NCBI RefSeq assembly: GCF_000375425.1 | Contig: NZ_AQXG01000004.1 | Location: 101,651 to 165,650, forward strand | Origin: Gracilimonas tropica DSM 19535 | Lineage (GTDB): Bacteria > Bacteroidota > Rhodothermia > Balneolales > Balneolaceae | Direction: 5' to 3' | DNA: 64,000 bases | In this document: piece after piece, positions 40,567-61,389 of the stretch | Position numbering within the stretch: position 1 is the first letter of the stretch | How the letters are laid out: each line of letters opens with the position of its first letter | The notes under the pieces: generated by a model | Databases searched by the model: none | What the model was told of the DNA's origin: nothing | Seen by the model: only the letters and a program-made list of their open reading frames with translations | Position numbers and translations under genes: made by a program

Positions 40567-40640
40567 CGGGGAGTGGCGCAGTCCGGTAGCGCATTCGCTT
40601 TGGGAGCGAAGGGTCGCAAGTTCAAATCTTGTCTCCCCGA
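40567..40640 (+). tRNA. tRNA-Pro (UGG)
   Basis: Acceptor CGGGGAG pairs with CTCCCCG; the anticodon loop TTTGGGA gives TGG (40601-40603); T arm GTTCAAAT. The discriminator is A and no CCA is encoded. Confidence 0.95.
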
Positions 40641-40709
40641 CACCGAGATTTCCTGATTACCGTTTGTTGATCAGGAAATCTCACTTTTTTTGACATCTTG
40701 TTAAGTTGA

Positions 40710-40783
40710 GCGCCCGTAGCTCAACTGGATAGAGCAATTGCCTTCTAAGCAATAGGTTACAGGTTCGAGTCCTGTCGGGCGTA
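40710..40783 (+). tRNA. tRNA-Arg (UCU)
   Basis: Acceptor GCGCCCG with CGGGCGT; anticodon stem ATTGC/GCAAT around the loop CTTCTAA, anticodon TCT; T arm GGTTCGAGTCC. No CCA is encoded. Confidence 0.95.
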
Positions 40784-40803
40784 CTAACTGACTTGCTTTA
40801 AAA

Positions 40804-40874
40804 GGCGACATGGCCGAGTGGTTAGGCAGAGGTCTGCAAAACCTCGTACGGCGGTTCGAGTCCGCCTGTCGCCT
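40804..40874 (+). tRNA. tRNA-Cys (GCA)
   Basis: Acceptor GGCGACA with TGTCGCC; anticodon stem GAGGT/ACCTC around the loop CTGCAAA, anticodon GCA. Discriminator T, as expected for Cys. 71 nt, no CCA. Confidence 0.95.
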
Positions 40875-40922
40875 CATTCATTTGGTTTTGTTCTTTTTGA
40901 CATATTGATTTCGATTTAAAAT

Positions 40923-40995
40923 GCCGCGTTCGTCTAGGGGTCCAGGACGCCGCCCTTTCACGGCGGTAGCACGGGTTCAAATCCCGTACGCGGTA
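40923..40995 (+). tRNA. tRNA-Glu (UUC), copy 1
   Basis: Acceptor GCCGCGT with ACGCGGT; anticodon stem CCGCC/GGCGG around the loop CTTTCAC, anticodon TTC. It is identical over its whole length to the copy at 41142-41214. Confidence 0.95.
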
Positions 40996-41005
40996 CTTCT
41001 AAAAT

Positions 41006-41080
41006 GGAGCTCGTAGCTCAGTTGGTTAGAGCGCCAGGTTGTGGCCCTGGAGGCCGTGGGTTCAAATCCCATCGGGCTCC
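41006..41080 (+). tRNA. tRNA-His (GUG)
   Basis: Anticodon stem CCAGG/CCTGG around the loop TTGTGGC, anticodon GTG. Read with the His-specific extra G (41006) opposite C73 (41080), the acceptor is GAGCTCG with CGGGCTC. Confidence 0.95.
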
Positions 41081-41092
41081 CTTTTTACAAAG

Positions 41093-41125
41093 CTGTGGAT
41101 ATTTAAAACATCCACGGTTTTTTTA
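41093..41125 (+). terminator. Terminator after tRNA-His
   Basis: Stem CTGTGGAT (41093-41100) with ATCCACGG (41110-41117), then eight T. It separates the first five tRNAs from the second tRNA-Glu. Confidence 0.8.
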
Positions 41126-41141
41126 TTGAACAGTTTTTTAA

Positions 41142-41214
41142 GCCGCGTTCGTCTAGGGGTCCAGGACGCCGCCCTTTCACGGCGGTAGCACGGGTTCAAA
41201 TCCCGTACGCGGTA
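41142..41214 (+). tRNA. tRNA-Glu (UUC), copy 2
   Basis: Identical to 40923-40995 across 73 nt. It follows the tRNA-His terminator by about 17 nt, so it depends on read-through or on a promoter inside that short space. Confidence 0.95.
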
Positions 41215-45238: not shown

Positions 45239-48200
45239 TCATCCTTTGTTCTCTTCAACCGACTCTGCCTTCAATAAATGCATTTTGATGGTATGTGTGC
45301 CACCGTCGAACTTCAGCTTCACTTTGGCCTGAGCTTTTTGCCCTTCATACAGTGCTCCGTCTGCCTCAATTTCTAAAAAACCACCTTCAACCCCATCTCT
45401 ATTCTCTACTTCTATTTCATACGTGGTTTTACCATCCGGTAAGCGCCATTTCACACGGTATGAGCTCCAACTTGCACTGATTGAGGGTTTCACCCAGAGT
45501 TCATCCCCAACTAATTTTAGTCCCAAAACAGATTCAAGAATAACCTGATACATCCATCCGGCCGAACCGGTATACCAGGTCCAGCCTCCCTGCCCTACAA
45601 ATGGAGGTTCTCCATACACATCGGCCGCTACAGCATACGGTTCAGTCTTATATCTGGAAATGGAATCGTGATCTCTGCCATGATTGACCGGATTGATCAT
45701 ATGCAGATATCGAACGGCCTTTTCACCATGCCCTTGCTCAGCAAAAGCCTTGATGACCCAAACTGCAGCATGCGTGTATTGCCCTCCGTTTTCACGTACT
45801 CCCGGTACATACCCTTTGATATATCCAGGATCTTTTTCCGTCTTGTCGAATGGAGGATCCAACAGCCTGATGATCCCGTCTTGTTCTGATATTAAATATT
45901 TTTCGAGTGAAATGAGTGCTTTCTCAGCTCTCTCACGGGATGCAACTCCGGATAAAATCGCCCACGATTGAGATATCGCATCAATCCGGCATTCAGCATT
46001 TTTTGATGAACCCAATGGAGTACCGTCATCATAGAATGCCCGAAGATACCACTCTCCATCCCATCCCTCTTTGTTTAATTTCTGATATAATTCTTCAGCT
46101 TGAAGTTTGAACTCATTCGCGGTTTCATGATCATTTCTGCTTTCAGCGATACCCACAAACTGGGTTAATATTTGATAGAGGAAGAAACCAAGCCACACGC
46201 TTTCACCCTGCCCCTGGTGCCCCACCCGGTTCATCCCGTCATTCCAGTCTCCTCCACCCATAAGCGGCAATCCATGCGGACCAAATTTCAGTGAAACTCT
46301 AACGGCACGTAAACAATGTTCATATAAATTCGCTTTTTCAGAACTGATATGCGGCTGCAGATACACTTCATGCTCACTTTGCTCAAGTTGCCTTGCCGTT
46401 ATAAATGGCACCATTTCCTCGAGTATGTCGGCTTTGCCTGTAATCCGAATGTAATGATAGGTTACATACGGCAGCCATAACCGGTCATCTGTAATACGTG
46501 AACGGATTCCCCGTGCTGTTGGCGGATGCCACCAATGCAACACATCCCCCTCGGGAAACTGCCGGGAAGCATGCAGCAGTATTTGCTTTCTTGCCAGTTC
46601 GGGATCTGCAAAGAGTGCGGCCATGGAATCCTGAAGCTGATCTCTAAAACCAAACGCGCCGCCGGCCTGATAATATCCTGTGCGAGCCCACATCCGGCAA
46701 GCTATGGTTTGATACATCAGCCAGCCATTCATGATCGTATTGAGTGAATCATCGGGAGTTTCTACTTGAATAGCCGAAAGCGTTTGATCCCAATGGGAGG
46801 TTACTTTCTCAAAAGATGAACTTGTCTCTTCAGTTTTGGAATACTTATCAATGAAATGAATTGCACCCGCTTTTGATTCTGCTTCTCCTAAAATTACAAC
46901 CACCTCTTTTTCCTCACCCGGTTCCAGCCAAACATTTGTTTGAAAAGCCGCACAAGGATCACCTCCGGTAACGACTTCGTTGTTAAGTACCGAGTGCGTT
47001 GAGATCCCTTCCGGAGCCTCCAAACCGTTATTTCGCCCTATAAACCACTGCCGGTCTGTTGCAAAAGAGAATTCAGCTCCCAAACCTTCACCGGTACGTA
47101 CGGAAGCAAAGGCCGTCCTTGGAGCAAACTCATTGTTGTACCAATTTTGTGCGAACAGAGCATTTTGGGCATCATCGAATTCTTGCAGTACAAATCGTGA
47201 TGATCTATCCCGCTGAATACCAAGTACCCATTCGTTGTAATTAACCACCGATATGATCTTTCGGGTTGATCCGATATTTTGAACCCTGATCCTCGAGATC
47301 TTAACCGGATCCGTTAGATCAACAAATTGGGTGAGTTCTGATCTGATCCCAAAAGAGGTGTGTTTATATGTTGAATATCCAAACCCGTGGATTACTTCGT
47401 ATCCCTCAGCACCCGGAGCGGGCTGAGGCGTCAACGACCAATACCGCTTTGATTTGAAATCACGGATATAGAAAGCCTCAGAAGATGGGTCTAAAACCGG
47501 ATCGTTTGCCCATGAGGTCAATTTGTTTTCCCGGCTGTTTTCACTCCAGGTATAACCTCCGCCGCTTTCGGTGGCTAAAAATCCAAAATCAGGATTAGAG
47601 ATCACATTTATCCAGGGAGCAGGAGGCAAACGTAACTCCCCATTTTTATCCCTGTTGATAAGCAGCTTGTAGGCTTTTCCCTGTTCGGTAAATCCACCAT
47701 ATCCGTTAAAAAATGAAAGTGATTCAGCTTCTTCCTGATCCCGGACTTTACGAATTTCCGCATCTTTTACTTTTGAAAACACCGGATGTCCACTTGCCAT
47801 AACTTCACTTCTTTGCCGACCCGACAATTCATCTATATTCGGAAATTCTCCGTTGAGTATAACAGATGCATAGGTCAGCATAAGATTCAGATCTTCTTCG
47901 GGCAGTCTTTCTGTACGATGCAGAAACACCTTTCCTGTATCATGATTTTTTTGCCGGCTTTGATGGTGTTCAATCGCTTTCTTTATGCCTTCTTCAACTT
48001 CATCTGCGTAGCTGGGCGGGTGGTCATTCAATATCAACAGATCGGTGTATAAACCCCGGTTTTTCCAGAGTAAATGCCCATTCAACATCCTGTTTACATA
48101 TTTCAGTTGATCGGTATTGCTTACTCTGAATACGATAAGTGGTAAATCTCCAGATATTCCATATCCCCACAAATTTGACTGAAACTTCCTGTTTTGGCTT

Positions 48201-51200
48201 ATTATTTCCGGCTCAGCCCGAAGCTTTCCGTCATTATAGATAACATAGCCGGCCATTTTTTGGAATAAATGAAACTGTCCGCTGCTGATGCCCAAATGTT
48301 CCAATTCCACATTGTTGTAGATCACCGAAAGGTCGAATGCACGGTTTACCGCATAAGGATTATCAAAAAGATCAGTGATCTTGGCAGCCTCTTCCCTGGA
48401 ACGCGCCCATCCGGTCCCAAAAGTAACCTCTTTTTTTTCTCCCGGGCCAAGATGTACCACTCTCCGAATGCTAAAAACAGGATCCGAAACATTCCCCAAT
48501 GAACCGCTTAAGCGATTGCCCTCTTCCATTGCCAGGGGATTTTTAAGTGATCGCCCCCGCCCTATAAATTTAGCACGTTCCGTTTCAAACTGAAGAGGTT
48601 CCGTAAGGTGATCAAGATCATGAGCTGCCAGTGTGTGAACCAGGAAATCGGGTTGTTCATCGCTGCTTCTTGGCCGCCGCCACGCTATAATAGAATGATT
48701 CTCTGCCAGGTAATCTGTTTGCACAAATAACTTGGAAAATGCAGGATGAGCGGTGTAAGCCTCCCATGTATTCAAAACAATTTCACCGTAACTGGTAAGC
48801 TCAAGCTTTCGCGGCCGGTCAGAGTAGTTTGTTAAGGTGATCTTCCTCAGCTCAATAGGATGATCGGGCGAGATCGTGATTTCAGTGGTTGTCTCGACCC
48901 ATTGATCTACGCGTGACGTTTGTATTTTACTGTGATGAAACCAAGAATCGTAACGATCAGGTTTACGTTGCACCGGTTGATGATGGGAAGACCAGAAAAC
49001 ACCGGTTTCCAAATCTTTGATATACACAAAAGTACCCAATGGGTCTTCAGTAGCATCGGGTTTCCATCCCGTTAAAATGGTATTATTATATTTTAAACGC
49101 CCCGTACCGGCGTGTCCTTCATAGGCATGCAACTTACCGTTCGATAGTAGATGTATTCTGGGAGGGGCATTTATCAGGTCGTTTTCGGTCGCATTTTCTA
49201 TAACATGTTTTGGGCTGAATTGCTCACCGGGTTCCAGTTCAACATCTATTGGATGTGGTTCCTTGATCGGGATGCCGCGTGGAATACGTTCCTGTAATAA
49301 TAATTCACATGATCTTATCTTTGGGTCGGAATGGAAATAGGCATGAACAGGCCAGTCCTTCAACACATTCACAAGCGCGATCATGCTCATTCCGTGATGA
49401 TGGGCCATATAAATTTTCACCACTTTATAGCTTTCTTCTTCGCTCAGATGCTCACGGGTAAAATCAATTGCATCGTAGTAACCCCAAAGGCCAAAAGCTC
49501 CTAATTTGTTGAGTTCTTTCATGTTCTCAAAAGATAAAACCGGATTAACCATCAACGAAAGTAACGTAGCATACGGGGCTACCACAAATTCCTCTGCCAG
49601 TCCTCGTTTTAACCCAAGACCGGGGGCTCCAAAAGCTCTGTATTGATAATTCAGATCCATGTTCAACACATTGTATGCACTTTCCGAAAATCCCCATGGC
49701 CGTTTAAAGCGGTTTGCATACGAACGCTGCCATTCAACAATGTATTTATAGGTATGGCTTAACAGTGTGTGCGGATATGCGCGCATGAAGAGCAGCGGCA
49801 TCAAATACTCAAAAGCTGTGCCACCCCACGAAAGTAAAAATTCATTCCTGTTAAGGCTTGTTAACCTTCGGCCCAGGCGAAACCAGTGTTCGGAGGGAAC
49901 ATCCCCTTTTGCAATGGCGATCAGTGAAGCGATCCTTGCCTCACTTGCCAACAAATCGTACGAACTTTTGTCGAGCTGTGCACGGTCTACATTATACCCA
50001 ATGCTGAAGAGGCCCCGCTTTTCCATATACAGGAAACTGAAATCCATTTCATCAACCAACAGCCTGCACGTTTTTTTGATCGTTTGCACCTGCTCTTTCA
50101 TCTTCCTCACGATCGAATCTCCGGTTCTTCTATAGCGATCTTCAAGAGAACTTGAAAACACTTCTTCATCTTCTAACAGTTCTAATTCTTCAAGATAGGC
50201 CTCTATTTGCTGTAATGGTGATTCCAGCCAGTATAGCAGATCATCGACGATCTCATCTCCCAGAATATTTCTCATCAACATCAGGTTTGATGCACTTAAA
50301 TGACTGGCGCAATCTTTAAGTGATTTGAGTTTTCGAATGGATTCCTGAACATTGAGTACTTTGGCTTCTGTTTTTGAAAGCTTTTCCAGCATATTCTGAA
50401 TACAGATGCCAATGGTTTGATATACTTCCGGCTGTTCCTCAAATTCTAACCGATACTCTTCTACAACCGCATTAACGGTATGAACCGTATCTAATAATCC
50501 ATCCCAAAAAGCATCATTGACTGATTTTCTGTGCCATATATGCTCTACCGCCTGTTCCACCACCATCAGTCCGGCTGCAAGATTTCCCGAATCTACCGTA
50601 GAAATGTATTTGGGATTCAAGACTTCTCCCAGGCGAATATCATACCAATTAAAGAAATGTCCCTTATACCGCTCAAGCCTTGCTAACGATGCTAATGTAC
50701 GCTCGAGTCTTGAGAACAGCTGCCTTGCGGTGATATAGCCCATTTCAAATGCTGAAACCGTGGAAACAAGCGTGAGCCCAATATTTGTGGGAGAAGTACG
50801 TGCCACGGGAGGCAGATCCGGATCTTTTTGATCATTGTCAGGCGGCAGCCATGAATACTCTTCTGTTACTAACCGTTCAAAATAGAACCAGGTACGCCGG
50901 GCGCTACTTCTGAGCTCCATTCGGGCGTCTTCAGATAACCCGGGAGACCGATCCTTTTGAGGTTGACTCAAATACCATGCAAAAACAGGAGAGCTCATCC
51001 ATAACAAAGAAAATGGAGCGATCACCCATAGATCCTGAGGGTTGATAAAGAAAGCTAATATCAACACTGAAAGTCCAAAAACCATGGAGGTAGTCATTGA
51101 TCGTGTATAGGAGAGCAATGTATTTAAGGCCATTTGTTCCGTTTGGGATGCCGAGATCCATTCCAGCAGTTTCTTTTCTGATACATGAACACGCCACAGA

Positions 51201-53923
51201 GCCCGAAATATGGCGTCAAGGTTTAGGATCATTTGGTGAGGAAGTATCGCTAATGTTGATATGGCCTGAATGGTGTTTACTTTCAGGTTCAGCCGGACTT
51301 TCTCAACATATAATTTCCATTTGGTCCGGGTGGGACGGTTCAGGATATCTGTTGAAAAGCTCACATAAATAGGAAAAGCAAGGATACCAAAGGCTACCAA
51401 AGTCCATAGAAAAGCAGACCCAGGCAGCCAAAACCAACCGGTTATAAAAAGTATCATTAGAAATAATGGATTTAATGAGCGCCGGAGATTATCAAATATC
51501 TTCCATCGCGAAAGCAGGCCGATGGGGTTGGCGGTGCTTTGCTTCCGTTCCGGAACTTTAGGTAACAACCAGGATGCTATTTGCCAGTCCCCCCGAGCCC
51601 AACGGTGATTTCGTTTGCAGTAGCTGTTGTAATTTCCCGGGTAATCGTCAAAAAGTTCAGTATCGGTGCTTAGTGCCGTTCTTATGTAGGAACTCTCGAG
51701 CAAATCGTGCGATAGCACACGGTTTTCAGGCAACCGGTTATGCATTACGGTATCAAATGCACATACATCGTAGATACCTTTCCCGGTAAAAACTCCATAT
51801 CCAAAAAGGTCCTGGTACACATCCGACACGGCTGTAGTATAAATATCGATTCCAACATTCCCGGAAAAATACCGGGTAAAACTCGTTCGGTAAGCGGAAT
51901 CAGGGGCGATAGAAATACGGGGCTGAATGATGCCGTACCCTTCAGTGATCATATTCTTTTCCGGGTCAAGAACGGCACGGTTTAATGGATGCGAAGCGAT
52001 CTTCACCAATTCTTTGATGCTCCCGGGAGGCGTGCGGGTATCTGCATCCAAAGTGAGCACAAAGCGTATGGGGCTGTGCGCTATACTTTCAAAAAAATTT
52101 CCATATATATAGCTGAATGGAGCGTGCTCTTTTGGATTACACAGCAGATGATTAAGCTGTTCCAGTTTGCCTCGTTTTCGCTCCCATCCCATCCACTTTC
52201 TTTCCTTCTCGTTCCATTCTCTTTTCCGGTGCAATACAAAGAATTTATCTCCGTATTTACCGGAATACTGTTCATTCAGTTGACTTACTCCCTCTTCTAC
52301 CTTTTGAAGAACCGGCCCATCCGAAAGCATGATCTTTCTCTCGGCATCCGCAAAATCACTAAGCAGAGCAAACTGTAAGCCTGGATCAGGATTAGCATGT
52401 GCTGTGATCTCCAGCTTCTCCAGGTATCGTTCCGCATCTTTTTCATTGTTCAGGATTACCGGCACAACCACCAACGTACGGTCCTGATCCGGGATATCCT
52501 CTTTGATTCTCATTTTTGGAAGTACACGGGGAGGCAGGGTAAATGCAAAAAACCGGTTCACAATCGAAATGGCTAATTCAAGAGAGGGGAACAGGGCAAC
52601 CAGCATGACCGTCAATTTGATATAAAACCGATTGTCCGCTAAACCGGTCAGATGCCATAGTATCAATAAAAGAAGAACCGAAGTTGCCAGAATAAACAGG
52701 ATATATAAGAACGACTGTTTTTCAAAAGCACTCCGTACCAGCTCACCCGCAGAGCGGTGTGTTTTCAACTCCTTATTTAGTTTGATGTATCCTTTTCCGA
52801 TCAGGAAGTAACCCACGTGTGTTTTTAAAACAGAAGGGTCGAATAGCTTCCTGTCGGTTTCCATACCGGCATCACCCCGGTTTATCTCTGCCAACTTCAG
52901 TACTTTTTCTGCTACTTCAGTCTCCGTAAAAGCCGACCTCCCGCTAAGCCGCTCTACCACGCGACGGTAATCGTCCTTTGTTTTATGATCCATAAGCGTA
53001 TAAATACCCATGGGATCAAGCTTCAGGATTCGGTCAACGATGGAACAGTCTTCTACAAAATCTTCCCACTCTATCTCGGTGGAATTCCGAAATGAGATCA
53101 CCGCATTTTGGATACTCACCTGAATTTTAGATTGCCGTTGCAAGTCTTCCCTCAATCCTTCTTCAAGGGTAGTTCCAAAAGAACTCAGACGATATTCGAA
53201 CCACCGCTTTAACTCCTCCGACATCATCCCTTCCAGCTGAAGCTGATGAGCCAGTTCTATTAACAAAAGCCGGTTTTCAAATCCATTTTCCTCTGCATTA
53301 AGCCAATCAATAATACTCCGCAGCAATAACCCCGGTTCTCCGGTTTCTGCAGACTGAAGGTTCACAACCAGGTCATGTACTTTTTCCTTGAGTTCCCGGT
53401 GTTTTAAGATGGAAGTTGCCTTGCGTGCCAGCTGATTAACCAGCACCAACCGAACCATAATGGGAATCGCCCAAAGCTCACCCAACCTAAGCGTAACTTC
53501 TTCCTGATAATGCTGAGTATACAACGTGAGGTTTTCCAAGCTGATGATGTTATCAGTATGAATGGTAAGATTGTGAACCAGGTCATAGACACGGGGCAAC
53601 CCTTTATTCACACCCGATCGCAAATGCGGAATATTACGCTGAAAACCGATCGGGAAATCCGTCTCTATCTGTACGATCTGCTCCTGAATGATGTAAAAAT
53701 TATCGATCAGCCATTCCGCCGCCGGCGATATATCCCGGTTTTCCTTTGCTGATTGGGCAAGGATTCTATAAGCACTTGTAAGTATTTCCTTATCCTGAAG
53801 AAGAATCGGTTTAACTGGGTGTATTTCCCTTTTTTTCCCGGAAATCTCATGCCTTCTGGACAGTTCCCTGGCATCCTTCTTGAGTAACTCAGGCTGGAAT
53901 AACAGTGGGGAGTCAGCCTCCAT
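45239..53923 (-). CDS. Cyclic beta-1,2-glucan synthase (NdvB/ChvB-like)
   Basis: 2894 residues, close to the length of Brucella and Rhizobium Cgs/NdvB. N-terminal soluble part (1-390), two membrane helices (about 395-460), the GT84 synthase domain (about 480-830) with the D-x-D motif in TLDADTRTPPG (about 625) and the acceptor motif RNHRWARGDWQ, more helices (about 840-1010), a glycoamylase-like domain (about 1040-1480), two supersandwich repeats (GHAGTGRLKYNN about 1600; FGIRSELTQF) and a C-terminal GH94 phosphorylase domain with GGGDWNDGMNRVG (about 2558) and RITDDRLWLPY. It makes, sizes and cyclises periplasmic beta-1,2-glucan. It is single in its transcript together with DUF5335. Confidence 0.92.
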   Translation of the reverse strand: MEADSPLLFQPELLKKDARELSRRHEISGKKREIHPVKPILLQDKEILTSAYRILAQSAKENRDISPAAEWLIDNFYIIQEQIVQIETDFPIGFQRNIPHLRSGVNKGLPRVYDLVHNLTIHTDNIISLENLTLYTQHYQEEVTLRLGELWAIPIMVRLVLVNQLARKATSILKHRELKEKVHDLVVNLQSAETGEPGLLLRSIIDWLNAEENGFENRLLLIELAHQLQLEGMMSEELKRWFEYRLSSFGTTLEEGLREDLQRQSKIQVSIQNAVISFRNSTEIEWEDFVEDCSIVDRILKLDPMGIYTLMDHKTKDDYRRVVERLSGRSAFTETEVAEKVLKLAEINRGDAGMETDRKLFDPSVLKTHVGYFLIGKGYIKLNKELKTHRSAGELVRSAFEKQSFLYILFILATSVLLLLILWHLTGLADNRFYIKLTVMLVALFPSLELAISIVNRFFAFTLPPRVLPKMRIKEDIPDQDRTLVVVPVILNNEKDAERYLEKLEITAHANPDPGLQFALLSDFADAERKIMLSDGPVLQKVEEGVSQLNEQYSGKYGDKFFVLHRKREWNEKERKWMGWERKRGKLEQLNHLLCNPKEHAPFSYIYGNFFESIAHSPIRFVLTLDADTRTPPGSIKELVKIASHPLNRAVLDPEKNMITEGYGIIQPRISIAPDSAYRTSFTRYFSGNVGIDIYTTAVSDVYQDLFGYGVFTGKGIYDVCAFDTVMHNRLPENRVLSHDLLESSYIRTALSTDTELFDDYPGNYNSYCKRNHRWARGDWQIASWLLPKVPERKQSTANPIGLLSRWKIFDNLRRSLNPLFLMILFITGWFWLPGSAFLWTLVAFGILAFPIYVSFSTDILNRPTRTKWKLYVEKVRLNLKVNTIQAISTLAILPHQMILNLDAIFRALWRVHVSEKKLLEWISASQTEQMALNTLLSYTRSMTTSMVFGLSVLILAFFINPQDLWVIAPFSLLWMSSPVFAWYLSQPQKDRSPGLSEDARMELRSSARRTWFYFERLVTEEYSWLPPDNDQKDPDLPPVARTSPTNIGLTLVSTVSAFEMGYITARQLFSRLERTLASLARLERYKGHFFNWYDIRLGEVLNPKYISTVDSGNLAAGLMVVEQAVEHIWHRKSVNDAFWDGLLDTVHTVNAVVEEYRLEFEEQPEVYQTIGICIQNMLEKLSKTEAKVLNVQESIRKLKSLKDCASHLSASNLMLMRNILGDEIVDDLLYWLESPLQQIEAYLEELELLEDEEVFSSSLEDRYRRTGDSIVRKMKEQVQTIKKTCRLLVDEMDFSFLYMEKRGLFSIGYNVDRAQLDKSSYDLLASEARIASLIAIAKGDVPSEHWFRLGRRLTSLNRNEFLLSWGGTAFEYLMPLLFMRAYPHTLLSHTYKYIVEWQRSYANRFKRPWGFSESAYNVLNMDLNYQYRAFGAPGLGLKRGLAEEFVVAPYATLLSLMVNPVLSFENMKELNKLGAFGLWGYYDAIDFTREHLSEEESYKVVKIYMAHHHGMSMIALVNVLKDWPVHAYFHSDPKIRSCELLLQERIPRGIPIKEPHPIDVELEPGEQFSPKHVIENATENDLINAPPRIHLLSNGKLHAYEGHAGTGRLKYNNTILTGWKPDATEDPLGTFVYIKDLETGVFWSSHHQPVQRKPDRYDSWFHHSKIQTSRVDQWVETTTEITISPDHPIELRKITLTNYSDRPRKLELTSYGEIVLNTWEAYTAHPAFSKLFVQTDYLAENHSIIAWRRPRSSDEQPDFLVHTLAAHDLDHLTEPLQFETERAKFIGRGRSLKNPLAMEEGNRLSGSLGNVSDPVFSIRRVVHLGPGEKKEVTFGTGWARSREEAAKITDLFDNPYAVNRAFDLSVIYNNVELEHLGISSGQFHLFQKMAGYVIYNDGKLRAEPEIISQNRKFQSNLWGYGISGDLPLIVFRVSNTDQLKYVNRMLNGHLLWKNRGLYTDLLILNDHPPSYADEVEEGIKKAIEHHQSRQKNHDTGKVFLHRTERLPEEDLNLMLTYASVILNGEFPNIDELSGRQRSEVMASGHPVFSKVKDAEIRKVRDQEEAESLSFFNGYGGFTEQGKAYKLLINRDKNGELRLPPAPWINVISNPDFGFLATESGGGYTWSENSRENKLTSWANDPVLDPSSEAFYIRDFKSKRYWSLTPQPAPGAEGYEVIHGFGYSTYKHTSFGIRSELTQFVDLTDPVKISRIRVQNIGSTRKIISVVNYNEWVLGIQRDRSSRFVLQEFDDAQNALFAQNWYNNEFAPRTAFASVRTGEGLGAEFSFATDRQWFIGRNNGLEAPEGISTHSVLNNEVVTGGDPCAAFQTNVWLEPGEEKEVVVILGEAESKAGAIHFIDKYSKTEETSSSFEKVTSHWDQTLSAIQVETPDDSLNTIMNGWLMYQTIACRMWARTGYYQAGGAFGFRDQLQDSMAALFADPELARKQILLHASRQFPEGDVLHWWHPPTARGIRSRITDDRLWLPYVTYHYIRITGKADILEEMVPFITARQLEQSEHEVYLQPHISSEKANLYEHCLRAVRVSLKFGPHGLPLMGGGDWNDGMNRVGHQGQGESVWLGFFLYQILTQFVGIAESRNDHETANEFKLQAEELYQKLNKEGWDGEWYLRAFYDDGTPLGSSKNAECRIDAISQSWAILSGVASRERAEKALISLEKYLISEQDGIIRLLDPPFDKTEKDPGYIKGYVPGVRENGGQYTHAAVWVIKAFAEQGHGEKAVRYLHMINPVNHGRDHDSISRYKTEPYAVAADVYGEPPFVGQGGWTWYTGSAGWMYQVILESVLGLKLVGDELWVKPSISASWSSYRVKWRLPDGKTTYEIEVENRDGVEGGFLEIEADGALYEGQKAQAKVKLKFDGGTHTIKMHLLKAESVEENKG

Positions 53924-55602: not shown

Positions 55603-58131
55603 ATGATCGATCAACTCTTTAACCTGCTTCGTCCTTTCATCCATTGGGTCATCAGAAAGCCGATCCCGGTATTTTTGACCTGTGTAGGATTGGCCATTGC
55701 AGGTTTTTTGCTGGCAAGCCGGCTCACCATTGATACGGATCTTTCTAACCTTATTCCTGATTCCTACCACAGTGTCCAGGCTTTGAACACGCTTACAAAG
55801 CAGGTTGGAGGCGAGCATGATGCTACTGTATCTATCGAAAGTCCCTACTTCAAAGCAAATAAAGATTTTGCAGAAGCTTTCATCCCAAAAGCCCTTCAGC
55901 TTGAACGTCCCCGATATAATGCTCCTTATTTTACTCGAGTACAATATCGGCGAGAGATCTCATTTCTAAAGCGAAACGCCCTTTATTTTGCAACCTCATC
56001 GGAGTTGGATCTCCTTGAAGACTATCTGAAAGCAGAAATTGAAGATGCCAAACAGAAAGCGAACCCTTTTTATTTTGAGCTTGATGAAGAAGAAGGCTTA
56101 AACACTGATTCGCTGGGAGATGAACTCAATACCAAGTACGAGGAATTGGTGGGCTCAGAGTACAACATCTCTCCCGACTCTACGGTCTTGGTTGTCAAGT
56201 TTTTTCCAAGTCATGCCCAAACGGAGATCCGTTTTATAGAAGATGCCTACAATGACCTAAATGCCCTCATAAAACAACTCGATCCTGCTTCATTTCACCC
56301 CGACATGAAAGTGGTGGCCGGCGGCCGAATGATCCGAACCCTCATTGAAATTGAGAGCATTGTCGATGATGTCAAAAATTCGTTTGGGGCCGGGGTTTTA
56401 ATGCTCATGATCGCCGTTGTCTCCTATTTTTTCTATAAAAGCTATCGTGCTCGGGCCGGTCATCGCTTTGACCCTTCCCTGCTGTTTTCACAATTGCTTC
56501 AGGTTCCGGCTCACACCATTATTATGGCGCTTCCATTGCTCGTAAGCTTGTGCTGGACTTTTGGCCTTGCCTTCCTTTTCTATGGGCACCTGAATATCAT
56601 GACCTCCACGCTTGGATTGCTTCTATTTGGGATGGGGATTGACTTCGGAATCCACTTTTTTGCACGCTATACCGAAGAGCGCAGCAAAGGCGAGTCGGTA
56701 CCCGAAGCAATAGAAACAACGTTTATGACCACCGGCCAGGCAATTTTTGCGGTTGGAGTTACCACCGCTGCTGCTTTTTTCATTCTGATGCTGGCTGATT
56801 TCAAAGGCTTCAGCGAGTTCGGCGCAATTTCAGGTATCGGGTTGATACTTGCCATATTTGCCTACATTATTTTCTTACCGGCCCTGCTGGTGATCCTGGA
56901 GCGAAGTCCTATGCTCAACCTACATACCGACATTCCCATCCGTCCCGAGACAAGCGTAACTCACCAAGAAAAAGGAAGCCAAAAACGCCAAAAGGTTGTT
57001 TCATTTTCAATTCTTGGGGCTGCATTGATAATTACGGCCATTTCTTTGATTGAGCTCCCGCATATTTCCTTTGAATATGACTTTGGGAAACTGGAGCCCA
57101 CTTACGAACGCTATGATGAGCTATACAGAACCGCCTCAAAAGCATCTCGCGGACGCAGCGACCGCAATGCCGCTTACATTATTGTTGACCATGCTGAAGA
57201 GGCCCCAGAAGTAGCTGATATTTTGAGGAAGCGAATGGAAATGGATTACCGGACTCCTACCATCAGAGAAGTCGAGGTTTTTCAGGACCGCTATCCTTTT
57301 TCGGATGAAGAAGCACGGTCAAAACTTCTTCGCATAACCCACATCCGAACGCTGCTGGATGATCCTTTTCTAATCAATTCAAAAGATCAGGATATCCTTC
57401 GGCTTCGAACGGCTGCTTCTACCCGGAATGAGATTCCGCTCGACAGTGTCCCCGAATTTCTGAAAGCCCCCTTTACCTCCGCAACCGGCACTATCGGAAA
57501 TCTGGTGATCATACGTCCTCTTTTCAGCCTTTCTGACGGCCGAAATTCCATGAATTTTGCCGATGATGTGGGCTCTGTTACCCTGCCTGACGGAACGACC
57601 TATTATGCCGGGTCCACATCTATCGTCGCCTCAGATATGCTCCGACTTTTAATGGAAGAGACTCCGCTAATGGTCGCTTTAACGATTGCATTCATTGTTA
57701 TTTTTAAGTTATTGATATTACGCCAGGTGAAATGGGTTCTGCTGGCTTTACTGCCTTTAGTTGCCAGCTTTGTGTGGCTTTTTGGATTGATGGAAGTATT
57801 CGGCTGGAAGATCAATTTCTATAATCTTGTGGTATTCCCGACCATTCTGGGGATCGGAGATGACAGCGGCATCCATATCGTTCATCGATACCTTGAGGAA
57901 GGCAAAGGCTCGATCCGCAAAGTACTTTATTCTACCGGTGAACATATCAGCGTTAGTATTTTCACTACCATCCTTGGTTTTAGCGGCTTGCTTTTTTCCA
58001 TTCATCCCGGACTTCGTTCTATCGGTGAATTAGCAACGTTTGGCATCGGTTTATCGCTGTTGGCTGCCCTGGTGCTTTTACCCGCCATCATCCACATTAT
58101 TGAGCAAAATGACCACTCATCCCGTAGCTGA
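55603..58131 (+). CDS. MMPL/RND-family lipid exporter
   Basis: 842 residues. Membrane helix near 15-35, a large periplasmic domain (about 40-240), helices 2-6 (about 260-440) with GMGIDFGIHFFARYTEE, a second periplasmic domain, and the matching block near the C-terminus (GIGDDSGIHIVHRYLEEG). The two D-x-G-I-H motifs carry the proton-relay residues of RND pumps. Members such as HpnN move hopanoids or other lipids to the outer membrane. The gene is coupled to the bactofilin-like protein upstream. Confidence 0.92.
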   Translation: MIDQLFNLLRPFIHWVIRKPIPVFLTCVGLAIAGFLLASRLTIDTDLSNLIPDSYHSVQALNTLTKQVGGEHDATVSIESPYFKANKDFAEAFIPKALQLERPRYNAPYFTRVQYRREISFLKRNALYFATSSELDLLEDYLKAEIEDAKQKANPFYFELDEEEGLNTDSLGDELNTKYEELVGSEYNISPDSTVLVVKFFPSHAQTEIRFIEDAYNDLNALIKQLDPASFHPDMKVVAGGRMIRTLIEIESIVDDVKNSFGAGVLMLMIAVVSYFFYKSYRARAGHRFDPSLLFSQLLQVPAHTIIMALPLLVSLCWTFGLAFLFYGHLNIMTSTLGLLLFGMGIDFGIHFFARYTEERSKGESVPEAIETTFMTTGQAIFAVGVTTAAAFFILMLADFKGFSEFGAISGIGLILAIFAYIIFLPALLVILERSPMLNLHTDIPIRPETSVTHQEKGSQKRQKVVSFSILGAALIITAISLIELPHISFEYDFGKLEPTYERYDELYRTASKASRGRSDRNAAYIIVDHAEEAPEVADILRKRMEMDYRTPTIREVEVFQDRYPFSDEEARSKLLRITHIRTLLDDPFLINSKDQDILRLRTAASTRNEIPLDSVPEFLKAPFTSATGTIGNLVIIRPLFSLSDGRNSMNFADDVGSVTLPDGTTYYAGSTSIVASDMLRLLMEETPLMVALTIAFIVIFKLLILRQVKWVLLALLPLVASFVWLFGLMEVFGWKINFYNLVVFPTILGIGDDSGIHIVHRYLEEGKGSIRKVLYSTGEHISVSIFTTILGFSGLLFSIHPGLRSIGELATFGIGLSLLAALVLLPAIIHIIEQNDHSSRS

Positions 58132-58220
58132 TTTCATTACAAACTGCGGTTCGTAAAACCTACAATGCACTCCTATTTTTTCCTGCTTCGGTTCATTCTT
58201 ACACGGTGTATGTTGCACCC
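58132..58220. other. Gap between the MMPL gene and the riboswitch block
   Basis: 89 nt. No hairpin with a T run is seen directly after the MMPL stop, so exporter transcripts may run into the riboswitch block. No gene is visible. Confidence 0.4.
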
Positions 58221-58401
58221 AGATTCTTTGACACACTGACTGAAATCGAAAAACAGAGCACAATTACTATTCCTTAGACAGAAAGTAATGAATCGGGAAA
58301 AATGCCCGCCGATTCCATGCACTAAAAGCCGTAATAAGCATTTTGTGGTGTGATGCTCCGGTTCAATATCTTTGCTGATGCATAATCAGCAACTTTGAGA
58401 G

Positions 58402-58482
58402 CCGACCATTGAGGTGCTTGTGATGAGCTGAGATCAAACCTTTATAACTTGATTCGGACTATGCCGACGAAAGGAAATGGCC
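58402..58482 (+). promoter_or_regulatory. TPP riboswitch aptamer, copy 1
   Basis: Fits the THI element: P1 CCATT (58406) with AATGG (58476), P2 GAGGTGC with AACCTT, P3 closing into the invariant GCTGAGA, then AACTTGATTCGG and ATGCCGACGAAAGG with P4 TCGG/CCGA, and GGAAATGG. All the ligand-contacting segments (CTGAGA and the AACTTGAT / GCCGACG block) are present. It should bind thiamine pyrophosphate. It is on the same strand as its own terminator just downstream. Confidence 0.88.
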
Positions 58483-58502
58483 GACTTTCTGGTATATTGA
58501 CT

Positions 58503-58534
58503 GGCCCGGAGCTTAACCGCTTCGGGCCTTTTTT
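58503..58534 (+). terminator. Terminator of riboswitch copy 1
   Basis: Stem GGCCCGGAGC (58503-58512) with GCTTCGGGCC (58519-58528, one G-T wobble), then TTTTTT. Its left arm is complementary to GCTCCGG upstream of the aptamer. Confidence 0.9.
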
Positions 58535-58835
58535 GTTTGATCTTATTTACTCCTTAACAACAGAAAAATCACCTTACAATTTAACGGTGAAAATCCTACA
58601 AGGCCTTCTGCTTTTGCCCTGCTTTTCCCGGAGTCATGTTCGTTTATATTTCTACCAGATTCTTTGATCTACTGATAGTTGATAAAGGGCACAGTCTCCG
58701 GCTCTTTAATTAGAACGGAGATCAACCGGAAAAAGAAGCCGCCGGTTACTGATGGGAATGGTCATGACCGATTCTCCAAACAGTGTGCTCCGGTTATCGA
58801 TAAGGGATGCTGATGATAATCAGCAAACCCGAAAG

Positions 58836-58916
58836 CCGACCATTGAGGGTGCTCACATCGAGCTGAGAGGAAACCTCCAAAACTTGATTCGGATCATACC
58901 GGCGAAAGGAAATGGT
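58836..58916 (+). promoter_or_regulatory. TPP riboswitch aptamer, copy 2
   Basis: P1 CCATT (58840) with AATGG (58911), GAGGGTGCTC, GAGCTGAGAGG, AACCTCC, AACTTGATTCGG, ATACCGGCGAAAGG. The invariant parts are as in copy 1; P4 is CGG/CCG. It precedes its own terminator and then, 77 nt further, the TraR/DksA gene. No thi gene lies on either side. Confidence 0.88.
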
Positions 58917-58935
58917 GACTTTCTAATTATTGAGT

Positions 58936-58967
58936 GGCCCGGAGCTTAACCGCTTCGGGCCTTTTTT
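58936..58967 (+). terminator. Terminator of riboswitch copy 2
   Basis: Stem GGCCCGGAGC (58936-58945) with GCTTCGGGCC (58952-58961), then TTTTTT. Same sequence as the copy 1 terminator. Confidence 0.9.
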
Positions 58968-59043
58968 ATGCTGCGGGGTTTTATCCTACATCAAAAATAC
59001 CGTCCTGCTGTCCTTATAATTCCACTTTTGATCTTATCTAAAG

Positions 59044-59481
59044 ATGGAATTTATTCAATCTTCACCAGTGGGCAACGTCATGGAAAACACAAAGGTCTCA
59101 AAATCACCCTTAGACAAAAAAACACTCGAGCACTTTAGAAATATACTGTTGGCGAAACGGAAAAGTGCCGAGGAGCAGATCCGCATAGCCTCCGATAATA
59201 TTTACAACAGAGACAGTGAGAATGACCCGGACTACCTGACGGTATCTGATCTGGAGGAACTGGGCAGCGGCACCGAACGGGATTCATTTAACTATCAAAT
59301 GATGGACCGCACCCGAAAGTATATCCAACAAATTGACGATGCCCTGGAAAGAATTGATAACGGAACGTATGGTATCTGCCAGGCAACGGGAAGGCCTATT
59401 TCCCGGGCAAGGCTCGAAGCCGTTCCGCATACGCGCTTTAGTATCTACGCCAAAAAGAAAGGGTTGGCCGAAGATGAATAA
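59044..59481 (+). CDS. TraR/DksA-family regulator
   Basis: 145 residues (the ATG at 59080 would give 133). Long helical coiled-coil part (LEHFRNILLAKRKSAEEQI) with the acidic tip region DSENDPDYLTVSDLEELGSGTERDS in two parts, then a zinc-finger-like C-terminus GTYGICQATGRPISRARLEAVPHTRFS cut to one Cys, a form known from Bacteroidota. DksA-type proteins insert into the RNA polymerase secondary channel and alter stress transcription. It is the first gene after the tandem TPP riboswitches and starts a run with the phosphoribosyltransferase (51 nt), hydrolase and BCAM0308-like genes. Confidence 0.9.
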   Translation: MEFIQSSPVGNVMENTKVSKSPLDKKTLEHFRNILLAKRKSAEEQIRIASDNIYNRDSENDPDYLTVSDLEELGSGTERDSFNYQMMDRTRKYIQQIDDALERIDNGTYGICQATGRPISRARLEAVPHTRFSIYAKKKGLAEDE

Positions 59482-60894: not shown

Positions 60895-61389
60895 ATGAAA
60901 CGAAAGAAAAAAGGAAATCTCTTCAAGCAAGACCGGGCTCGTATTTTTAAGGATAAACGAGGCGATCCTTATCAACAAAAACAGAAATTACCGGATCCAA
61001 CTCTATGTCCCAATTGCGGGGCTGTTTTCACCAAAGGCCGCTGGAGCTGGGAATCGATCGAATTTGTGGAGAACGAGAAATTATGTCCCGCATGCCAGCG
61101 TATTGAGGATGGCTATCCTGCCGGTTTCGTAGAAGTTGAAGGCGATTTTTATCAAACACACAGAGAGGAGATCCTTCATTTGTTTCGGAACCTGGAAGAG
61201 CAGGAAACTCAGGAACATCCAATGGAAAGGATCATGCGCATTACGGAAGAAGATGGGAAAACGGTGATCACCACTACCGGGATGCATCTGCCACGTATGA
61301 TCGGCGATGCTCTTAAGAATTCCTATCAGGGAGATCTTGAAATATCGTATGATGCCGAAAGCATTGCCCGTGTTCATTGGGTACGTTAA
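60895..61389 (+). CDS. BCAM0308-like zinc-ribbon protein
   Basis: 164 residues. The N-terminal basic stretch leads to two CxxC pairs (C38-C41 and C64-C67) that should bind zinc, followed by an alpha/beta region with MERIMRITEEDGKTVITTTG. It matches the BCAM0308 family named for a gene of the B. cenocepacia low-oxygen cluster. The zinc ribbon recalls RNA-binding export adaptors of the NMD3 type (inference). It is the last gene of the four-gene run. Confidence 0.82.
   Translation: MKRKKKGNLFKQDRARIFKDKRGDPYQQKQKLPDPTLCPNCGAVFTKGRWSWESIEFVENEKLCPACQRIEDGYPAGFVEVEGDFYQTHREEILHLFRNLEEQETQEHPMERIMRITEEDGKTVITTTGMHLPRMIGDALKNSYQGDLEISYDAESIARVHWVR

Follow-up and report, generated by a model that had tools for sequence, protein, structure and literature searches.

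Tandem TPP aptamers of Gracilimonas tropica sit in repeated units with a structured 5′ domain and may belong to free-standing RNAs of the Balneolaceae

What do two complete thiamine pyrophosphate (TPP) aptamers do side by side where no thiamine gene is in sight? TPP riboswitches are known as feedback switches of thiamine genes and are the most common riboswitch class. In the 64,000-nt stretch of the Gracilimonas tropica DSM 19535 genome analysed here (the window), a 912-nt gap separates an MMPL exporter ORF, ending at 58131, from a DksA/TraR-type ORF starting at 59044 (both named by Pfam). A preliminary description had placed two TPP aptamers with their own terminators in this gap and offered four readings: control of the DksA-type regulator in cis, TPP-dependent ending of exporter transcripts, a free regulatory RNA, or the relict of a lost thi gene. 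Among these four, the data favour the free regulatory RNA.

An Rfam cmscan over the whole window, the check that the description had proposed, placed both aptamers above the gathering score of the TPP model (RF00059, 54.3 bits), the first barely (58401–58492, + strand, 54.9 bits) and the second clearly (58835–58927, + strand, 68.0 bits). Each is followed, 8–10 nt on, by a 10-bp hairpin, GGCCCGGAGC-TTAACC-GCTTCGGGCC, and a run of six T residues, forming an intrinsic terminator (58503–58534 and 58936–58967, both + strand) that folds apart from the aptamer; the claim of two aptamers with terminators of their own was therefore correct. At the gathering threshold the window otherwise yields just six tRNAs, whose genes cluster at 40567–41214 on the + strand. 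Two protein-coding features of the window may be mentioned: a 164-aa protein in the row after dksA (60895–61389) matches Pfam NMD3 (33.4 bits, cut-off 24.9), a family of archaeal and eukaryotic ribosome export, and a very large minus-strand ORF of 2894 aa (45239–53923) resembles a cyclic glucan synthase.

The repeated unit is larger than aptamer and terminator, the parts that the description had recognized; a structured domain 5′ of the aptamer (the 5′ domain) and the region upstream had escaped it. Direct repeats spaced 433–436 nt apart cover 58155–58534 and 58591–58967, so that a unit of ~435 bp, comprising upstream region, 5′ domain, aptamer and terminator, is duplicated in tandem. All features lie on the + strand. 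In unit 1, a CCTACA box (58159–58164) and a conserved element, CAGATTCTTTGACACACTGA (58220–58239), precede the 5′ domain, a P1–P2–P3 junction with a linker hairpin (58253–58393). Unit 2 has the same order, with its box at 58595–58600 (a CTTACA lies nearby at 58573–58578), the element CAGATTCTTTGATCTACTGA at 58656–58675 and the 5′ domain with linker hairpin at 58684–58827. The boxes were recognized from the unit alignment and the CYTACA counts given below, and the conserved elements, putative promoter elements, from an alignment of 13 units. Between the two units the aptamers are 81% identical and the 5′ domains 50%, and the single-strand fold of 58684–58970 in unit 2 is more stable than expected (z = −5.2).

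A conserved block 5′ of the aptamers is common to 13 units from 8 genomes, as read from the sequence; six loci (L017, L020, L021, L024, L025 and L026) have TPP aptamers without the block, as judged by eye. The domain it forms is ~110 nt long: helix P1 closes it, P2 and P3 are hairpins, a fourth arm is often present, and a pseudoknot of three pairs joins the P3 loop (CCG) to the bases directly past P1 (CGG); an inner hairpin has a loop that is mostly UACG. In the window, the pseudoknot strands are 58306–58308 and 58359–58361 in unit 1, and 58739–58741 and 58791–58793, assigned from the covariance columns, in unit 2. RNAalifold on the 13 sequences predicted 18 pairs in the domain, 13 of them with two-sided compensatory changes. 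A covariance model of the 5′ domain alone (R1) scores the window copies at 89.9 and 105.2 bits.

Covariation holds in the larger set of 80 domains (R1 matches at E ≤ 1e-4, realigned from stretches fetched around better matches). There, 19 of 22 pairs show two-sided changes and 96.3% of cells pair, figures to be read knowing that the model was fitted to P1–P3 and favours those helices. Double-change cells number 414, against 121 ± 14 in shuffled alignments (0/500) and 22–69 in slid controls. The pseudoknot, left outside the model, is paired in 80/80 sequences; six differ at one pair, each compensated. Folded alone, the domain forms P1 in 31/33 aptamer-bearing and 44/47 other sequences, P2 in 29/33 and 47/47, and P3 in 31/33 and 46/47. 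The inference in the preliminary description that conserved structure over diverged sequence argues against decay is upheld by compensatory changes in both 5′ domain and aptamer. Against Rfam 15, the 5′ domain has no match: non-TPP matches on the 912-nt gap, sought with permissive filters, fall far under the cut-offs, and 20 domain loci searched at E ≤ 1 gave only TPP and one chance snoRNA match. Strongly supported by covariation, the 5′ domain represents a family of structured RNA that Rfam 15 lacks, and it is the most novel part of the units.

The family is broadly distributed in the Balneolaceae. Over 93 genomes of this family, R1 matches 54 at E ≤ 0.05; follow-up was confined to matches with E up to 1e-5, and one apparently coding sequence (G000:C4:242880, E 0.0025) was dropped before counting. 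A second model, R2, matches 50 of 245 genomes of the class at E ≤ 1e-4, all Balneolaceae, and none of the 152 genomes outside that family, under strict filters that may lose weak matches. In total we count 83 domains in 50 of the 93 Balneolaceae genomes, 80 as above and three from R2 only. A search of named genomes with the stand-alone pattern returned seven stretches, from four Balneolaceae MAG contigs, two Rhodohalobacter sulfatireducens sequences (a Balneolaceae species by its database record) and one Bacteroidetes bacterium; one stand-alone pattern had no match in viral contigs. Rhodohalobacter sulfatireducens WB101 has the domain three times, with no aptamer confirmed by the TPP model.

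Nor is the tandem locus, real as it is, unique to this genome: in a DNA search of the 93 family genomes, a second genome of the genus (G026) proved to have this tandem, flanked by the same genes. A third unit with aptamer and domain lies elsewhere in the G. tropica genome. Outside the window, two TPP matches in this genome exceed the cut-off. One (contig C14) is directly upstream of a TonB-dependent receptor ORF, like ordinary leaders; the other (contig C2, L011:4062–4158), with U7 at its end, has a convergent PEBP-family gene downstream. The genome further carries a SAM-I/IV riboswitch (L010:9651–9759, 47.5 bits) close to the TonB-receptor locus.

The two modules, aptamer and 5′ domain, are physically linked, and the domain occurs with and without the aptamer. 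Of the 97 TPP-model matches in the 50 genomes with a domain, 29 begin within about 65 nt of a domain 3′ end on the same strand. Adding two aptamers found by cmscan (G052, 43.3 bits; G072, 33.5 bits) and two degenerate ones recognized by eye (G020:149335 at L056, with no TPP match at E ≤ 1, and one in G009, with no TPP-model match), 33 of the 83 domains are followed by a TPP or TPP-like aptamer and 50 stand alone, classes that were set by a regular expression and amended by model matches (L086 and L118 removed, L079 added). Stand-alone domains have a U-tract soon past the pseudoknot strand in 47/50 cases (relaxed pattern). One further array, at L095:5000–5957 in G031, has three tandem domains ~400 nt apart after an MMPL gene, none with a TPP aptamer found.

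Upstream sequences divide along the same line. The promoter pattern TTGAC-N-YWWTTA precedes 33/48 stand-alone domains and 1/32 aptamer-bearing ones, and an exact TGTGGATAA lies within 120 nt upstream of 34/48 and 0/32, respectively; conversely, CYTACA occurs within 150 nt upstream of 26/32 aptamer-bearing and 6/48 stand-alone domains. Read on the opposite strand, TGTGGATAA is the consensus core of the DnaA box, TTATCCACA. In 35/48 stand-alone copies, the 120 nt upstream contain two or more occurrences of TGTGGRWAA. Assigned by relaxed pattern, 39 copies have a DnaA-box-type upstream region, none with an aptamer, and 44 do not, 33 of these with an aptamer. Many stand-alone copies (L084, L088, L092, L093, L097, L099, L105, L109, L113, L114 and others) adjoin DnaA-box-like repeats, often with a T-rich stretch and a TTGACA-type promoter, and there are up to five copies per genome, some in tandem. 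Copies behind such repeats may be DnaA-controlled RNAs.

A tree of 80 domains, with modest support in places and three of the 83 copies absent, agrees with this division: 36 DnaA-box-type copies group together (support 0.905) with two aptamer-less copies of the other type, one in G003 and one cut at a contig end (G072:C89). The remaining nine aptamer-less copies without DnaA boxes are scattered among the aptamer-bearing ones.

Gene neighbourhoods differ as well. The neighbour clusters of aptamer-bearing units are of stress type, with representatives named by Pfam: MMPL, P-type ATPase, CheB/CheR-type, DksA, bactofilin-like (below the Pfam cut-off), phosphoribosyltransferase, flavodoxin-like and Hsp20. 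At least one of these lies among the two ORFs on each side of 28/33 aptamer-bearing copies, 7/11 other non-DnaA-type copies and 0/36 DnaA-box-type copies, the clusters having been picked after inspection of the aptamer-bearing loci and adjacent copies sharing genes. CYTACA also occurs upstream of 39/186 genes in non-DnaA-type loci against 11/153 in DnaA-type loci (Fisher p = 3.5e-4), counts that include at least one gene twice, since two fetched loci overlap, and that leave out the short loci L022 and L023. This enrichment suggests a shared regulon, as far as upstream motifs can indicate one.

Thiamine genes do not figure in these neighbourhoods. In a Pfam scan of 29 neighbourhood proteins, a subset of all neighbours, none matches a thiamine family, and two have no Pfam match at all; within this subset, the statement that no thiamine gene lies by the aptamers stands. 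The closest MMPL homologue within the 11 genomes of the genus, 76% identical, is in G026, and the best in the other nine reaches 44–46%. As G026 alone has a close homologue, the genus offered no example of an empty site carrying a thiamine gene. The relict reading is disfavoured because both modules covary over diverged sequence and no thiamine family appears among the 29 proteins.

On balance, we think it probable, though well short of certain, that two independent RNA genes of ~290 nt occupy the gap in tandem, each with a 5′ effector domain acting in trans and a 3′ TPP sensor. Each gene would comprise, in order, the upstream region, the 5′ domain, the linker hairpin, the TPP aptamer and the terminator. 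The 5′ domain, common to the stand-alone RNAs of Balneolaceae, would be the effector and most likely acts in trans on a putative protein or RNA target; the 3′ aptamer would be a metabolic sensor, and the TPP level probably tunes RNA folding, 3′-end formation or stability after synthesis. A free-standing RNA is the simplest reading because the units have upstream boxes and, in the window, terminators, because 50 domains occur without an aptamer, and because most loci have no co-directional next gene. Alongside what is observed (both modules, their linkage and covariation, their distribution, upstream boxes and neighbourhoods), we infer promoter activity of the units, their transcription as discrete RNAs and their action in trans.

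The state of the aptamers bears on the rival that fares best, itself unlikely: that the 5′ domain alone is functional and the TPP aptamer a structured tail that is being lost. Loss is visible in places. Nine non-DnaA-type copies lack an aptamer, the J5/4 CG is gone from 6/32 aligned aptamers, and in the G026 tandem the domains are 88% identical and the aptamers 56.5%, the second aptamer scoring 42.5 bits without its J5/4 CG. From these three observations it follows that TPP sensing is inessential to some copies. The aptamers as a set are nevertheless maintained: 12/18 predicted pairs carry two-sided changes, TGAGA is invariant in 32/32 and the J5/4 CG is kept in 26/32, so that the contact residues that the preliminary description had expected relatives to retain are kept in full in the first motif and in part in the second. 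The window copies run against the trend of G026, their aptamers being more alike than their domains (81% against 50%), and both aptamers retain CTGAGA and CGAAAGG. TGAGA is the pyrimidine-binding motif, its role, like that of the J5/4 CG, being known from thiM structures. TPP-like aptamers with TGAGA but without the J5/4 CG are found at L083:5181–5276, L087:5178–5271, L094:5151–5247, L119:5168–5259, L069:4759–4853 and L032:9576–9667. Aptamers of this kind are possible candidates, on sequence grounds, for lost or changed ligand specificity; since, according to PMC9481103, thiamin or thiamin monophosphate is the preferred ligand of some RNAs assigned to the TPP riboswitch class, altered specificity may be considered for them.

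A rather improbable alternative assigns the units to TPP-controlled termination of antisense or read-through transcripts, with the aptamer as part of the terminator and transcription entering a convergent gene when TPP is absent; PMC2258182 describes an antisense transcript that is terminated by a SAM-I riboswitch. The nearest downstream gene is indeed convergent for 21/33 aptamer-bearing units (mechanical ORF calls), and a U-tract abuts the aptamer 3′ arm (≤12 nt) in 12/30 located units. Yet the U-tract is 43–104 nt away in 14/30 and was not found in 4/30, the aptamer P1 arm is predicted to be paired without ligand (probability ≥0.69) in 23/31 rows, the convergent genes come from many unrelated families, and the model is inapplicable in the window.

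Improbable too, and slightly more so, is a tandem TPP riboswitch in cis, in which TPP would raise termination and lower expression of dksA. It suits some loci: the dksA ORF is co-directional and starts 76 nt past the second T-tract in the window, G026 has the same gene order, and DksA is also downstream in G016 (L035). A TPP riboswitch acting in cis belongs to the leader of the gene that it precedes, a thiamine gene or another co-directional one, and the next gene here is co-directional in 12/33 units, the window dksA included, and convergent in the other 21. The co-directional genes vary in kind (DksA, phosphoribosyltransferase, dienelactone hydrolase, citrate synthase), the window terminators intervene before dksA as hairpins separate from the aptamers, and the conserved 5′ domain is left unexplained. 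Least likely, indeed very doubtful, is the version of the exporter proposal in which the gene before the RNA, MMPL in the window, would have the RNA as its regulated 3′ end or 3′ UTR. Of the 30 aptamer-bearing units with a preceding ORF, 24 have it in the same orientation, 17–609 nt upstream, and in three genera one of the two ORFs closest upstream of aptamer-bearing units is an MMPL gene, but preceding genes vary between copies and are on the other strand in 6/30, a conserved upstream region with boxes lies between the preceding gene and the RNA, unit 2 begins past the unit 1 terminator, and stand-alone copies have promoter-like sequence of their own.

For independent RNA genes, the way in which TPP would reach the effector can be asked of the predicted folds. 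When 150 nt of downstream sequence are added to the domain, the minimum-energy fold retains P1 in 22/33 aptamer-bearing units; the downstream part disturbs it in 11, window copy 1 among them, yet no conserved mutually exclusive helix emerges. One candidate was a switch helix between CGGUU, past P1, and AAGCC of the aptamer 5′ P1 strand, which, when TPP is absent, would break the pseudoknot. Its predicted probability exceeds 0.6 in window copy 2, in G011 and in one copy of G016, but it is unsupported family-wide: the mean duplex energy over 31 units is −4.49, against −4.56 when strands are swapped between genomes and −3.64 ± 1.94 in shuffles, a weak negative, with two units skipped and at least four rows mislocated (L074, L077, L104 and window copy 1).

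Known classes of trans-acting RNA were also considered. An Hfq profile matches 0/93 family genomes (5/14 control genomes) and a CsrA profile 0/93 (3/14 control genomes), so that a classical Hfq-dependent sRNA or a CsrA sponge is unlikely. Searches for 6S RNA (RF00013, RF01685) gave no match in six domain-bearing genomes at E ≤ 1, the RF01685 control being uninformative, and the fold differs; with the search covering six genomes, a 6S-like role for the domain RNA is still conceivable.

The nearest published logic, with another ligand and the reverse module order, is that of EutX/Rli55, an AdoCbl-riboswitch sRNA that sequesters the ANTAR regulator EutV, as described in PMC5821096. As there, a metabolite aptamer is combined with a second module in an RNA proposed to be free-standing and to act in trans, independently of the orientation of any target; modules, terminators and conserved upstream boxes are all present here. 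The differences from EutX/Rli55, with its known protein target, are that the ligand is TPP and that the extra module, a pseudoknotted junction, lies 5′ of the aptamer, where early termination cannot remove it. Downstream of the window aptamers there is no ANTAR dual-hairpin site, just 8–10 nt before the terminator. The Listeria SreA RNA is reportedly a SAM riboswitch that acts as an sRNA and is the terminated leader of a regulated gene; our units resemble it in the proposed trans role of a riboswitch RNA, but most of their loci lack a co-directional gene downstream.

In aptamer sequence, helices and conserved core, the units resemble the TPP riboswitch (RF00059), as presented in the available portions of PMC2258182 and PMC9481103. 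The same portions treat tandem TPP riboswitches as gene switches of mRNA leaders, whereas the aptamers here are attached to a 5′ RNA domain and have their own terminators, with no thiamine gene among the scanned neighbours. A genus-specific RNA family of Bartonella henselae, in tandem with DNA-binding proteins (PMC5387305), likewise places lineage-specific RNAs beside regulator genes; compared by description alone, its accessible text mentions no TPP aptamer. Among the matches listed in a search of the open-access literature, we found neither an sRNA with a TPP aptamer nor a structured RNA family from the Balneolaceae.

More tentatively, and at less than even confidence, the copies could form one lineage-specific family of trans-acting RNAs with a single pseudoknotted effector and two inputs: DnaA-box-like arrays, linked to growth or replication, and a TPP aptamer in stress neighbourhoods. 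The effector would then be gated by the cofactor status of central metabolism, and TPP, in place of its feedback on thiamine genes, would signal globally to a stress programme. The stand-alone copies by DnaA-box-like repeats raise the separate question of replication-linked RNAs. If the proposal of independent RNA genes is true, a conserved family of RNA genes in which an unrelated structured domain is joined to a TPP aptamer, amid stress genes and mostly without a co-directional gene downstream, would put the most common riboswitch class to a new use and would be a test case for ligand-gated trans RNAs in bacteria without recognisable Hfq or CsrA. In the Balneolaceae, it seems, a well-known metabolite sensor has become joined not to a vitamin gene but to an RNA linked with stress.
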